Shown here: one piece after another, positions 34,405 through 39,689 of the stretch
Layout: the number at the start of each line of letters is the position of its first letter
Position numbering within the stretch: position 1 is the stretch's first letter
Source of the DNA: Alphaproteobacteria bacterium
GTDB taxonomy: Bacteria; Pseudomonadota; Alphaproteobacteria; Caulobacterales; Aquidulcibacteraceae
DNA length: 42,184 nt
Assembly (NCBI GenBank): GCA_026400735.1
Contig: JAPLOL010000149.1
Span: 1-42,184 of the forward strand
Reading direction: 5' to 3'
Made by a program: the position numbers and the translations under genes
Notes under the pieces: model-generated
The model's database searches: none
The model's input: only the letters and a program-made list of their open reading frames with translations
What the model was told of the DNA's origin: nothing

Positions 34405-34626
34405 ATGGCGCAGCCTGTGACGGCCATTCTTTCACGCCAGGGCGAGCTTGCCGCCAAGGCGCGCCAATTCACGAATGATACGAACGAGGCGAGCCTTCTA
34501 GTTGGCCGCGTGGTTTCCCGTGCGTTGAGCACGTTCAAAGGCACTGAAGCCCAAGACATCATCACCCACGCGATGAGCCGTGATCTTGATCGCCTGATCG
34601 AGCAATTGAAGAAAGCTCGGCACTAA
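34405..34626 (+). CDS. Small helical protein (73 residues), sigma region 2-like
   Basis: No recognised family. The protein is all-helical and basic. Residues about 13-42 (ELAAKARQFTNDTNEASLLV then GRVVSRALSTF) resemble helix 1-2 of ECF sigma factor region 2 (A.R.LT.d..dA.dLvq..l.rAl), but the core-binding and -10 recognition helices are absent. GGAGG at 34395-34399 is a good ribosome site, and a candidate promoter lies upstream, so it is likely real. It overlaps the convergent msrB stop by four bases. Confidence 0.72.
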   Translation: MAQPVTAILSRQGELAAKARQFTNDTNEASLLVGRVVSRALSTFKGTEAQDIITHAMSRDLDRLIEQLKKARH

Positions 34627-35096
34627 GCGGCGAGGCGTTCCTCGCGGCCGAGTGGGTCTGGCAGGGCTTCACCGTCCGCCACAAATTGCAGCGACACTGA
34701 ATTGATGCAGTAGCGCAGGCCGCCAGCTGAACGCGGGCCGTCTGGGAAGACGTGACCTTGGTGGCTGTCGCAGCGTGCGCAGCGTGTCTCGATGCGGCGC
34801 ATGCCGTAGGAATTATCTTCGATACCGACGACGTGCTTGGGATCGATGGGGCCCGTAAAGCTTGGCCAGCCGGTGCCGCTTTCGAACTTTGTGTCCTGAC
34901 GAAAGAGGGGCAGGCCGCAGAGGCGGCAACAATAAGCGCCTGAACTTTTCTGGTTGAGCAAGCCGCCACAGAACGGGGCTTCGGTGCCGTGGTGTAGCAG
35001 CACGCGGCGTTCTTCGTCAGTAAGGCTAGCTTCAAGGCGCAAACGCTCTTGTGCGCTGGGAGGTGTGAGATCGAAGCCGGAGGCTGAAATTGTCAT
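34623..35096 (-). CDS. msrB: Peptide-methionine (R)-S-oxide reductase
   Basis: Repairs oxidised methionine in proteins (R epimer). The 157-residue product has the zinc Cys pairs (Cys57/Cys60 and Cys106/Cys109), GTGWPSFTGPI, and the catalytic selenocysteine-equivalent Cys130 in RYCINSVSLQF. ATG 35096 is used, with AGGGA just upstream; a longer frame to 35123 is possible. It lies 50 bases downstream of the small protein in the TIR-ParA operon on the same strand and may be co-transcribed. Confidence 0.93.
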   Translation of the reverse strand: MTISASGFDLTPPSAQERLRLEASLTDEERRVLLHHGTEAPFCGGLLNQKSSGAYCCRLCGLPLFRQDTKFESGTGWPSFTGPIDPKHVVGIEDNSYGMRRIETRCARCDSHQGHVFPDGPRSAGGLRYCINSVSLQFVADGEALPDPLGREERLAA

Positions 35097-35146
35097 CGTC
35101 CCTAACTTGGTGAACGCCGCCAAGTTCGTCCAGGGCTTCGGAAGGG

Positions 35147-35557
35147 TTACACCACGCCGTCACTGCCGCCGTAGAGCTTACTCAGATGCGTGACCAAGCT
35201 TTTGGCGCCGGCGCTGATTTGGTCGTCGCTAAATTTGGTGCGCAGTTGGCGCGCGGCGTCCGCTAGGCCCTTAGGCTCGTAAGCGAACTTGCGTTTGTAC
35301 TTCTTGGCGATGTGCTCGATCAGTAGGTCGGCCTTCTCCTGGGACGGACCCATGATTGGCTTTAGCGTCTGTTCCAGTTCGCGCACCAGCGGATCGCCCT
35401 TGGGCTTGGCGGCCTTCTTTGGCGCGGGTAGCGCGGCGGCCAGCAAAGCTTTGTCGGAATTGTCGCGGGCGAGCTTGAAGATCCGCCGCACTTCGGGGCG
35501 CGAGCGGCGCCCAAGCGCGGCGCGCAGCAATTTAGCGTCGGCCGGTTTTAAAGTCAT
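35147..35557 (-). CDS. Small Lys-rich helical protein coupled to TIR-ParA
   Basis: I do not recognise this 136-residue protein. The N-terminus (MTLKPADAKLLRAALGRRSR) is helical and basic, followed by a Lys/Ala/Pro linker (APKKAAKPKGD) and helical segments LVRELEQTLKPIMG, KADLLIEHIAKKYKRKFAY and ISAGAKSLVTHLSKLYGG. No signal or membrane segment. Its ATG overlaps the TIR-ParA stop (35554-35557), so the two are made together; a nucleic-acid-binding or adaptor partner role for the ATPase is a guess from charge and linkage. Confidence 0.75.
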   Translation of the reverse strand: MTLKPADAKLLRAALGRRSRPEVRRIFKLARDNSDKALLAAALPAPKKAAKPKGDPLVRELEQTLKPIMGPSQEKADLLIEHIAKKYKRKFAYEPKGLADAARQLRTKFSDDQISAGAKSLVTHLSKLYGGSDGVV

Positions 35558-36828
35558 GGCGCCGCCCGGCGGAGAATGGCTGCGGCGGCGCGGGCAAGCG
35601 ATTCCTTGGCTGGCCGGCCCCCGACGCGCATCATCGCTGTGACATTGATCGGGTTGGTGGCGAAGCGCTCAGTCGGCGTTGAGCGCAGGACCGCCGAATA
35701 TGGCACTTCGTCAGGCAGCAGCGCGCCGCCGAAGAAGGGCGCGTTCTGGATCTCCGACCGCGTCAGCGCGTCGGCGTCGCCAGTCTCTCCAGAGCGCGTG
35801 CGGTCGTTCACACCGTTCAGGAGCACCGAGAACTCCTCGGGCCGCAATGGCCTTCCCCTGACCTCACGCACGACATGCTCAAGCATGTTCAAACCGGTGA
35901 GCGAATAGCGCTCGGGGCGAACCGGGGCGACGATGTGGTCAGCGGTGGTGATCGCCAAGCGGGTGAGAAACGTCGCACAGGGGTTGGAGTCGATAATCAC
36001 TGCGTCAGAGCGGGCGCGGAGTGCGGCCACAAGAGCGCGGAAACGCGTGAACGCTTCGGCTTTGTCTCGATCTGGGCGGGTGTCGAGGGTGAATTCGAAG
36101 AGACGCTCGTCGCCGGCGACAAGTTCAAAGTTCGGCCCTTTGCTGCCGCGTCTGACGCGATTCAACGGGATGGAAATCGCGCCGAAATCGCTAAGCGGTG
36201 TCGCGTGGTCGCCGCGCGCATTGAGGATGCCATAGAGCGTGTGGTTCCGGTCGCGGATGCGGTTCCTCTCGCCGGGCGAGAGAAAATACTGTGTGAGATT
36301 GTGTTGCGGATCGAGGTCGATAAACGAGATCGCGCGCTTGTCTGCCAGGTGCGCAGCCGCGAAGAGATTGGCTGCGAGTACTGTCTTGCCGACGCCGCCC
36401 TTGATGTTGAGCATGGCGATGACACGGCCGCGCCCGTTTGCGGCGCGTGCCCGTTCAACGATTTGGGCAAGTGTCTCTGATCGCGCGCCACGCCGTAGGT
36501 CGATGAAGTTGGACGTGTCGAGCGTTTGGCTGAACCATGAATCGCCGGCGAGATCGGCAGTCTGCACCACGACGATCGCTCGGCCATTGTTGAGCGCGGC
36601 CGCCACCTCGCGGCGCACCCAAGCGCTCTCCTGAGCCGCAGGTGACGCGAGGACGATGACCACCGCGCACTGGCCAACCGCCTGGACGAGCGTGCCAAGC
36701 TTGTCTTGAACGCGATACTCGGGGCCGGAGCGGAGCACGGTCCATCCGTGCTGTTCGAGCTCGGCTGCGATGGATCGTGCGGCGTCTCCGTCGTCCGGTT
36801 CGAAGGCGAGATACGCCGCTGTTGCCAT
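35554..36828 (-). CDS. TIR domain fused to a ParA/Soj-type ATPase
   Basis: A 424-residue two-domain protein. Residues 3-125 are a bacterial TIR_2 domain: TAAYLAFEPDDGDAARSIAA, LEQHGWTVL, AVVIVLASPAAQESAWVRRE; Glu74 in WVRRE sits where TIR NADases have their catalytic Glu. Residues 135-424 are a ParA-family ATPase with deviant Walker A KGGVGKT (143-149, with signature Lys143), Walker A' ISFIDLDPQHNLTQYF, Walker B AVIIDSNP and an intact C-terminal fold. TIR domains of this type cleave NAD+ in defence systems, whereas ParA proteins position DNA or complexes. No ParB is nearby. The fusion and its coupling to a small basic protein are unusual. Domain calls are strong; the biological role is inference. 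Confidence 0.9.
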   Translation of the reverse strand: MATAAYLAFEPDDGDAARSIAAELEQHGWTVLRSGPEYRVQDKLGTLVQAVGQCAVVIVLASPAAQESAWVRREVAAALNNGRAIVVVQTADLAGDSWFSQTLDTSNFIDLRRGARSETLAQIVERARAANGRGRVIAMLNIKGGVGKTVLAANLFAAAHLADKRAISFIDLDPQHNLTQYFLSPGERNRIRDRNHTLYGILNARGDHATPLSDFGAISIPLNRVRRGSKGPNFELVAGDERLFEFTLDTRPDRDKAEAFTRFRALVAALRARSDAVIIDSNPCATFLTRLAITTADHIVAPVRPERYSLTGLNMLEHVVREVRGRPLRPEEFSVLLNGVNDRTRSGETGDADALTRSEIQNAPFFGGALLPDEVPYSAVLRSTPTERFATNPINVTAMMRVGGRPAKESLARAAAAILRRAAP

Positions 36829-36960: not shown

Positions 36961-38298
36961 ATGCCCGATCCCGCCCTTCTTGAGCTTTTTCAGCGCCTCG
37001 CAATGGCGCTTGGGATTGGCTTTTTGGTCGGTGTTGAGCGTGGTTGGAAGCACCGGGATGCGCCCGATGGGACGCGTGCCGCCGGCCTTCGAACTCATTC
37101 CGTTATCGGATTGATGGGCGGCGTTACGGGCGCATTGCTCCCGACGGTCGGCCAAGTTGGATTCGCGGCTTTGGCACTGGTGTTCGGCGCGGCGTTTGTG
37201 ACGTTCAAGGTACGCGAGAGTCAGCGCGACAACGATCTTTCGGCGACAGGAACGATTGCCGGGCTGCTGGTCTTTGCGCTCGGTGTTTATGCAATGTGGG
37301 GCGATCTGCGTATCGCGGCGGCAGTGGGCGTGACGCTCGTTGGTTTGCTTGCGTTCAAGAACGCGCTGCACGATTGGCTCGATAAAGTGACGTGGAAGGA
37401 GCTGCGGTCGGCGCTGCTCATTCTTGGCGCGACATTCATCGCGCTGCCGCTCCTGCCGGATCGCGCCGTCGATGTGTGGGGCGCGATCAACCCGCGTGAA
37501 TTGTGGTTGTTGACCATCCTCGTCGCGGGCGCGTCGTTTGCGGGTTACGTCGCGGTGCGGGTGCTGGGCAATGATGTCGGCGTTCTCGCAGGCGCTGCGG
37601 CCGGCTCGGTTGTCTCTTCAACAGTGGTGACTGCGGAGCTGGGCCGGCGTGTGAAGAGCGGCGAAACGCACGCGATGGTGGGCGGTGCGGCGGCAGCGAT
37701 CGCGGCGGCGATTAGCATTGGGCGCGTGATCGCACTGCTGGCTGTCACAGCGATGCCGATCGTGCCTGAGGCGGCGCCGGCGCTGGTGACGGCGCTTATT
37801 GTGTTTGCGGGCGCGGCGTTCGCGCTGCGCTATTTCGACAGAGAGGGCGATGGCGCGGATTCATCGCAGAAGCTGCGCAGTCCTCTCGATCTGGTTTCAG
37901 TGTTTCAATTCGCGGCGTTTCTGGGCGCCGTGATTGTCGTTGGTCGCATCGTGGCCGACGCGTTCGGCCAAGCAGGGTTGCTGCCATTCGCTGCGACGGC
38001 CGGGTTGGCCGATGTTGATGCGGTCACGCTCGCTGCTGGAAGTCTGGTGCGCGGTGGGTTGGAGCCTGCGGTCGGCGCACATGCGGTGATGATCGCGGTG
38101 CTGATGAACACGCTGGCTAAGGGTGTGATCGCCTTTGTAACGGGCGGATGGCGCTACGCGGCGCTCTATTTCGCAGCTGCTGTGGCGGCGACAATTGCCG
38201 CAGCGGCGGTTTGGTTCTTGGTCACACCGCTTATTGCGCCCATGTTTGGTGTGCAGGTGCAGCAACAGGCCTCGCTTGGAGCCGCAATGTTCGGCTAG
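36961..38298 (+). CDS. DUF4010/MgtC-like inner-membrane protein
   Basis: A 445-residue membrane protein with an MgtC/SapB-like N-terminal part ([48 protein letters not shown]) and a DUF4010 C-terminal part ([20 protein letters not shown]). About a dozen hydrophobic segments are visible. Role is uncertain; relatives are thought to affect ion or stress homeostasis. ATG 36961 starts the family-like sequence; the GTG at 36895 would add 22 non-conserved residues. It is divergent from TIR-ParA across a short leader. Confidence 0.85.
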
Positions 38299-38309
38299 GG
38301 TTCGGAACG

Positions 38310-39689
38310 ATGAAGGAAAAATGGACCCCCGCAGGCTGGCGTTCGCTGCCGGCCAAGCACATTCCGACGGATTATCCCGATCCGGCGGCGCTGACGCGCG
38401 TCGAGCAGCAGCTCCGCTCGTATCCGCCGCTCGTGTTTGCGGGCGAAGCGCGCAATCTGAAGGCGCGTCTGGCCGAGGTCGCCGCCGGGAAAGCTTTCCT
38501 GTTGCAAGGCGGTGATTGCGCCGAGAGCTTCAAGGAATTTCATCCCGACAACATCCGCGACACCTTCCGCACGCTGATGGCGATGAGCGTCGTGCTGACG
38601 TTCGCGGGCTCCAAGCCGGTGGTGAAGCTCGGGCGCATTGCCGGCCAGTTCGGTAAGCCGCGCTCGGAGCAGATCGAGACTCAGAATGGGGTCACGCTAC
38701 CTTCTTACCGAGGCGACAACATCAACGGCATGGATTTCACGCCGGAATCGCGGACGCCCGATCCGGAGCGTTTGTTGAAGGCGTATTCGCAGTCGGCGGC
38801 GACGCTGAACCTCATCCGTGCGTTCGCGAACGGTGGCTACGCCGATCTGCATAATGTCCATCGCTGGATGGTTGGCTTCGTTGCCGATAGTCCGCAGGGC
38901 AAACGCTATCAAGAAATCGCGGACCGCATTTCTGAAGCCATCGACTTCATGGAAGCGTGCGGAATCACGCCGCAGAGCGTGCCGCAAGTCCGCCAGGTGG
39001 ACGTCTACACCAGCCATGAAGCGCTGTTGCTTGGCTACGAAGAGGCGATGACGCGCGTCGATTCCACCAGCGGCGATTATTACGACACCAGCGCACACTT
39101 TGTGTGGATTGGCGATCGCACGCGTCAGCCTGATGGCGCGCACATCGAGTTTGTCCGCGGAATCAAGAACCCGCTTGGCATCAAGTGCGGGCCTTCGCTT
39201 GATCCCGACGAGTTGCTGAAGCTGATCGATATTCTGAACCCGGCGGATGAGGCGGGACGCATCACGCTCATCGCGCGCTTTGGCGTCGACAAGGTTCAGG
39301 CGGGTTTGCCGAAATTGGTGCGCGCGGTCCAAAAATCGGGGCGCACGGTGATCTGGTCGTGTGATCCAATGCACGGCAACACGTTGAAGACGGCGTCAGG
39401 CTACAAGACGCGGCCGTTTGATCGAATCCTCGGAGAGGTTTCGAGCTTCATGGATATTGTGACGTCGGAAGGCGCCTATCCGGGCGGCGTGCACGTCGAG
39501 ATGACGGGACAGCAGGTCACGGAATGCTTGGGCGGCGCGTCGGCGGTGACGGAAGAGGATCTCTCCAGCCGCTATCATACGCACTGCGACCCGCGGCTCA
39601 ACGGCACGCAGGCGCTGGATCTGGCGTTTCTGATCGCGGAAAAGCTCCGCAGCGCGCGCGTGAATGGTCGCAAGGCGCAGGCGAGTTAG
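38310..39689 (+). CDS. 3-deoxy-7-phosphoheptulonate synthase, class II
   Basis: First enzyme of the shikimate path, joining phosphoenolpyruvate and erythrose 4-phosphate. The 459-residue class II (plant/Mycobacterium-like) protein has [73 protein letters not shown] and [10 protein letters not shown], the metal- and substrate-binding boxes of the family. ATG 38310 starts eleven bases after the preceding stop; a longer frame begins inside the membrane-protein gene. It is followed by gshB. Confidence 0.96.

Follow-up and report, generated by a model that had tools for sequence, protein, structure and literature searches.

ParA-type ATPases and TIR domains have each been well studied. ParA/MinD ATPases reach their cargo by way of dedicated partners with charged N-termini (PMC10241942) and bind DNA through basic patches, which vary between families (PMC7229837). 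Roles in conflict systems have also been proposed: a ParA/Soj ATPase has been postulated to regulate a HEPN toxin (PMC3710099), and other conflict systems contain MinD/ParA-like domains that are inactive (PMC7159879; all four sources were available as partial text). In the literature searched, where subscription papers and preprints are thinly covered, no title or abstract describes a fusion of TIR and ParA domains, and the available text of a jumbo-phage paper (PMC7824862) contains nothing on one. The original prediction, which was made from sequence alone and knew of no described system with the exact layout of the present locus, stands within those texts.

The locus lies in a window, that is, the whole stretch of DNA analysed, of 42,184 nt from an Alphaproteobacteria bacterium (Caulobacterales; Aquidulcibacteraceae; GCA_026400735.1, contig JAPLOL010000149.1; genome G000). 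L- and G-numbers designate the loci and genomes compared; f1 is the family of the window genome and f2 is a second Caulobacterales family, probably Caulobacteraceae. The features are as follows.

35554..36828, minus strand: TIR-ParA fusion protein of 424 aa (ORF, Pfam and orthologues)
36454..36828, minus strand: TIR domain, residues 1-125 (Pfam TIR_2 at 7-123; AlphaFold2 model)
36607..36609, minus strand: Glu74 codon (residue alignment of orthologues)
35557..36429, minus strand: ParA-type ATPase domain, residues 134-424 (AAA_31 and CbiA of Pfam; Foldseek)
36385..36405, minus strand: deviant Walker A, residues 142-148, IKGGVGK (alignment)
35147..35557, minus strand: small basic partner of 136 aa, predicted all-helical with a basic linker (ORF; translationally coupled)
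34623..35123, minus strand: MsrB (SelR), directly downstream in the window's own genus; it stays where the pair is missing
38292..39689, plus strand: aroG (class-II DAHP synthase), neighbour of TIR-ParA and positional anchor

As predicted, a single protein joins a TIR domain to a ParA ATPase with a deviant Walker A (Pfam TIR_2 and AAA_31), and its stop overlaps a small basic gene (29 K+R versus 15 D+E) by 4 bases, ATGA. The absence of ParB, also predicted, holds at the locus; the sole ParB_N match of the genome is on contig C150, and the ParB gene that would adjoin ParA in a ParABS system is missing here. The genes around the pair encode housekeeping functions: MsrB, arginyl-tRNA-protein transferase, MgtC/DUF4010, class-II DAHP synthase, and glutathione synthetase. 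When used as a query against its own genome at E<=0.001, TIR-ParA finds only itself. This genome also contains 15 TIR_2 matches at E<=0.01, 12 of them over the cut-off, with two close pairs on contigs C151 and C41. A TIR_2 control search also gave a match in Caulobacter vibrioides.

Multiple features identify the ATPase portion as ParA-type. Pfam AAA_31 covers residues 135-325 (82 bits), while the MipZ match is weak (31 bits). The top Foldseek matches are ParA/Soj structures (best ParA, 8ray_A, E 3.7e-9), as expected of a ParA fold; in the predicted model, residues 189-233 have low confidence. The deviant Walker A, KGGVGKT, contains K143 and K148, and these two lysines and T149 are invariant in 47 of 47 aligned proteins, in keeping with the KGGxGK[ST] signature and its signature lysine. 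A profile alignment places R345 on the Arg of the Soj DGRT motif, suggesting that it may be the equivalent of the known DNA-binding Arg. R345 is invariant in 16 rows from the genus and is Gln in the f2 members shown. (Alignments and residue counts leave out L022, at a contig edge, and L029/L048, which are broken; L011, which is close to L012, is left out of the tree and of dN/dS; and most of L031-L048 overlap genomes of L002-L020 and are counted once in the residue counts.)

Among the genomes sampled at class and phylum level (385, 337, and 398 in overlapping samples, with only 3-5 candidates scored per genome), full-length TIR-ParA was seen in Caulobacterales alone; all other matches start at residue 110 or beyond. 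Within the order, 73 of 299 sampled genomes match at E<=1e-15; 41 of the 73 are from f2, in which some genomes (e.g. G068 and G072) have no match. Within f1, 31 of 60 genomes match at E<=1e-25. Among 30 genomes of the window's genus, the aroG-type copy is present in 23: it is intact in 21, truncated at the end of a contig in G045, and broken in G054. Another six show no match, and in G048 there is a distant copy only. In G054 (L029/L048), TIR-ParA is broken into three pieces by frame changes and a stop, and the partner is open; either a dispensable gene or assembly errors could account for this. The partner is present in 28 of the 60 f1 genomes, each time directly downstream of TIR-ParA. Homologues with the same two-gene order, a search for which had been suggested at the outset, do recur: in the window's own genus (22 of 30 genomes), in four aroG-linked other genera (one with a 79-aa partner), and in five copies elsewhere.

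The chromosomal place of the gene is fixed. aroG adjoins TIR-ParA or is one gene away, in divergent orientation, in 18 of 18 named loci of the genus, 6 of 6 loci of other f1 genera, and 15 of 15 f2 loci, the last being those examined among 41 f2 carriers. In the genus, an MgtC/DUF4010 gene lies between the two in 16 of 18 loci, and MsrB is directly 3' of the pair on the same strand. The f2 order is aroG, TIR-ParA, and then gor-, rpiA-, and glmU-like genes, and the f1 locus L079, from another genus, has this same order with the partner after TIR-ParA (all names by eye). This common order supports positional orthology despite an identity of only about 25-31% between f1 and f2 TIR-ParA. Grouping of the aroG-linked copies of f1 with those of f2 is weakly supported (86/70) in a tree that warns of long branches, and orthology is suggested mainly by position. 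The seven non-carriers in the genus (L085-L091) lack both genes of the pair and retain MsrB, arginyl-transferase, and aroG in their places. Mapped onto a 50-row aroG tree, carrier status requires no fewer than 5 changes, and six of these seven non-carriers group together (100/97). The GC3 of the window gene is 0.75, compared with 0.76 for aroG and 0.58-0.65 for the five copies away from aroG.

Several loci depart from this arrangement. The aroG region of G016 (L095:8200-11067) has no TIR-ParA and contains two ParA genes that lack a TIR; a small protein gene comes after each of them. In another alphaproteobacterial genome (L192:1067-2433), the gene for a ParA relative without TIR overlaps (-4) the downstream gene for a 140-aa protein, indicating that the arrangement of ParA plus small partner is wider than the TIR fusion. 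At the f2 locus L061, a 523-aa ORF resembling a caspase-type peptidase (by eye) lies ~60 bases downstream of TIR-ParA.

The TIR domain is the more variable part of the protein. Pfam TIR_2 matches residues 7-123 with 44.9 bits (cut-off 28), and the TIR block of the AlphaFold2 model, residues 1-130, has a pLDDT of 79-94; both point to a TIR fold. ThsB_TIR of Pfam also matches. Among the described and candidate systems of PADLOC 2023, there are only weak ThsB/PDC-M50B-type matches (best E 0.0015). Used by itself as a phmmer query, the window TIR retrieves no TIR from the PDB; with the family profile A1, SARM1 and AbTIR chains are matched in that database. Glu74 aligns with the Glu of other TIR-ParA proteins, and in a phmmer alignment of the relative L066 with the Paracoccus TIR structure 3h16, this position coincides with the Glu of WPQKE, a residue that we take to be the catalytic Glu of TIR NADases.

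The original prediction put Glu74 forward as a candidate NADase residue and held that its absence from homologues would argue against the proposal. Position 74 is Glu in 21 of 21 same-genus rows, where its codon is GAG in 14 and GAA in 6 of 20 rows; because it is invariant despite this synonymous change, Glu74 is under selection in the genus. W70 is kept in 19 of the 21 rows. Both observations speak against simple decay of the TIR. However, Glu is found in only 1 of 6 orthologues from other f1 genera (the rest have Ala, His, and, in three cases, Asp) and in none of 15 from f2 (Gln in 6, Asp in 9), so that 20 of the 21 aroG-linked orthologues from other genera and f2 have lost it, with at least 3 changes on the tree. 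All five copies away from aroG have it. Four of these, excluding L065, have TIR_2 scores of 73.0, 69.7, 68.7, and 52.4 bits (L068 being the last, at 52), whereas aroG-linked members other than the window protein score 42.7 and 28.4 (other f1 genera) and 40.7 and 27.1 (f2). In alignments, the window protein shows degraded forms of the beta-A ISY and BB-loop W-D..GD motifs, presumably hallmarks of NADase TIRs.

Within the genus, mean identity is 61% for the TIR versus 85% for the ParA part, and the TIR diverges faster; mean dN and dS are 0.31 and 1.44 for the TIR and 0.11 and 1.13 for ParA (20 sequences, with dS near saturation). Among the six closest sequences, dN/dS is 0.12 for the TIR and 0.045 for ParA, indicating that both segments are under purifying selection. 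The window TIR domain looks partly worn. A residual NAD-directed activity is possible in the window's genus, since Glu74 is kept there, yet NADase activity would not be a family-wide property.

The partner has no clear relative in the collections searched: Pfam has nothing at E<=1, NCBIfam gives a single match at E 0.2, PADLOC a single weak one to typeIV_Cas6 (E 0.0056), and a fold search yields no PDB match (best E 1.6). It is 128-141 aa long, except for 79 aa in L025. N-terminal and C-terminal helical regions are predicted, joined by a basic linker, and most f1 partners end alike, with a tail such as RETVV. In the genus its mean net charge is +15.5, and the first 30 residues have a net charge of +4 to +8 in 21 of 21 members; outside the genus this N-terminal charge is lower, -1 to +7. 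The N-terminus is predicted to be folded and helical (pLDDT 85-90). An hhalign comparison shows homology across 112 columns between the partners of aroG-linked copies and of those away from aroG (E 2.9e-5, probability 74%). Spacing to TIR-ParA is -4 in 21 of 21 intact same-genus loci and in 4 of 6 from other genera, the other two having +4. In f2, no partner gene lies directly downstream of TIR-ParA in 15 of 15 loci; thus, the partner is either not needed there or located elsewhere. In L025 (2739-2975), the N-terminal part and the linker are gone from the 79-aa partner, and the same genome has a shortened TIR with His at the Glu position.

Given the layout of ATPase and partner and the ParA precedents cited above, the pair can be taken as a ParA-type switch, derived from a conflict module and domesticated at aroG. 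We tentatively favor this reading of the sequences, in which TIR-ParA and a dedicated partner would form a two-gene switch whose TIR mainly assembles rather than destroying NAD+. It draws on the fusion, the coupled partner, the intact Walker A, the fixed place, purifying selection, the joint absence of both genes, the repeated loss of Glu, and the island relatives, all of which are seen in the sequences. An ancestral TIR-ParA/partner conflict module was probably domesticated at the aroG locus, and the pair would then have been inherited vertically beside aroG in part of Caulobacterales. By analogy, ATP would cause the ParA domain to dimerize and to attach to the nucleoid or to some other surface; the partner would bind TIR-ParA, stimulate ATP hydrolysis, and provide the link to a cargo, as ParB, McdB, and MinE do with their own ATPases; and the TIR domain would supply self-assembly or protein contacts.

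The main competitor, a rather unlikely one for the window copy, is active NADase defense: ParA would sense or assemble on a phage trigger, TIR filaments would form, and Glu74 would deplete NAD+, the partner being a sensor or an inhibitor. The conservation of Glu74 and W70 in the genus, the faster evolution of the TIR, and the dispensability of the pair, which is absent from 7 of 30 same-genus genomes and broken in G054, speak for it, as do the copies away from aroG. These keep Glu, and two of the five, those whose neighbors were scanned with Pfam, have a conflict-gene setting: L067 has AbiTii (E 9e-38), a second TIR protein, and an integrase of phage type as neighbors, and L064 is 3.4 kb from a pP_pnuc_1 protein, a predicted conflict nuclease. 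The other three look chromosomal. L068 is among general metabolism genes, and in two same-genus genomes (L065 and L066) TIR-ParA and the partner lie between dxs-like and flagellar fliE/flgC-like genes (all by eye). Thus, the defense-island context that the original prediction suggested looking for exists for L064 and L067, but the window copy sits among housekeeping genes in a place kept across two families and has a native-like GC3. Such housekeeping synteny had been named beforehand as evidence against a defense module, and for the window copy it counts against the defense reading. Loss of Glu from nearly all aroG-linked orthologues outside the genus, the degraded ISY and W-D..GD motifs, the low dN/dS of the TIR, and the failure of this TIR alone to find a PDB TIR by phmmer argue in the same direction.

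Spread on plasmids or phages was considered and rejected, as the fusion is covered by none of the plasmid records (119 and 596; the sole one covering at least 80% of the query starts at residue 81) or phage records (14, one of which, H73, matches the TIR part alone). Of 152 relatives on viral contigs, 80 were kept; they yielded 69 ParA ORFs of 200 aa or more, none of which matches the A1-derived TIR profile at E<=1. Three of these have long N-termini, and TIR_2 is in neither of the two scanned by Pfam; a scan of viral contigs with L067 also found nothing. By its sequence context, the window locus does not look like a mobile defense locus. With its long-fixed place and partly worn TIR, a tamed cell-organization switch is likelier than active phage defense. 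The other function originally suggested, a polarity or partition factor that uses TIR for assembly, fits better than defense does, although the function itself is inferred.

Distinctly less likely is a dyad of the toxin-antitoxin kind, in which one partner restrains the other, the TIR being fused to the ATPase and the small protein acting as antitoxin or activator. The tight translational coupling and the joint absence of both genes are what such a dyad would show, and in the available text of PMC3710099 a ParA/Soj-HEPN (MAE_18760) dyad is postulated as a toxin-antitoxin system. However, inheritance appears native and vertical, and TIR-ParA persists without an adjacent partner at all 15 f2 loci and with a shortened one in L025, indicating that it is not obviously toxic alone. 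A regulator of oxidative stress or of the shikimate pathway, tied to MsrB, glutathione reductase, and aroG, is very improbable; the position of MsrB just after the pair in the genus, in the same orientation, the ever-present aroG, and the gor-like gene after TIR-ParA in f2 (by eye) suggest it, but the neighbors differ between clades and stay where the pair is missing, aroG is transcribed divergently, and linkage to neighbors can be explained by a position long kept. An ordinary plasmid or chromosome partition ParA with a chance N-terminal extension is scarcely credible despite the ParA family features, because TIR_2 is over its cut-off in a confident, separate fold kept across two families, no ParB is at the locus, and NCBIfam partition models match far below their cut-offs.

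Returning to the domesticated ParA-type switch, several findings weigh against it: Glu74 is kept in the genus, f2 has no adjacent partner, the partner N-terminus is predicted to be folded, and N-terminal charge is lower outside the genus. A bolder form of the proposal, and a more doubtful one, is that an immune-type module was captured in the ancestor of two Caulobacterales families and became a cell-organization ATPase, the catalytic Glu of the TIR being dispensable and the domain a scaffold in positioning. Since the family spans island copies with intact-looking TIRs and fixed copies with several Glu losses, it offers a route to study the taming of an immune effector and to ask whether a ParA switch can be served by TIR assembly alone. 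If the f2 copies are those of Caulobacteraceae, the question is approachable in a genetically tractable group.

Like AbTIR, the Paracoccus TIR, and ThsB, the window protein has TIR_2 and ThsB_TIR matches and a Glu at the equivalent place; unlike them, it has a weak TIR score, has lost the Glu in most aroG-linked orthologues outside the genus, and carries its TIR fused to a ParA ATPase outside a defense island. The HEPN (MAE_18760)-ParA/Soj dyad (PMC3710099, partial text) also couples a ParA/Soj ATPase to a conflict-type effector domain, but there the HEPN RNase and the ATPase are separate, whereas here TIR and ATPase form one protein with a small third component. The PADLOC candidate PDC-M28B is similar in length (438) and has a ParA-like domain at the same place, and around the Walker A it weakly matches two of the copies that lie away from aroG; it was rejected as a known name for the family, as the members at the 4 loci read by eye have KGGVGR, a non-TIR N-terminus, and other neighbors. 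MipZ is likewise a Caulobacterales ParA-type ATPase without an adjacent ParB gene, and its Pfam model matches weakly, but the window protein is closer to ParA/AAA_31 and has the TIR fusion and the coupled small partner. Unlike the ParA/MinD partner systems, the present one has an N-terminal TIR fusion, a partner unrelated to theirs in Pfam, NCBIfam, PADLOC, and PDB fold searches, and a partner N-terminus predicted to be folded where theirs is disordered. The positively charged partner N-terminus seen in the window's own genus resembles that described for ParA/MinD partners (PMC10241942, partial text), and as in the ParAB, McdAB, MinDE, and PpfA-type systems, the gene for a deviant Walker A ATPase lies directly upstream of that for a small partner.
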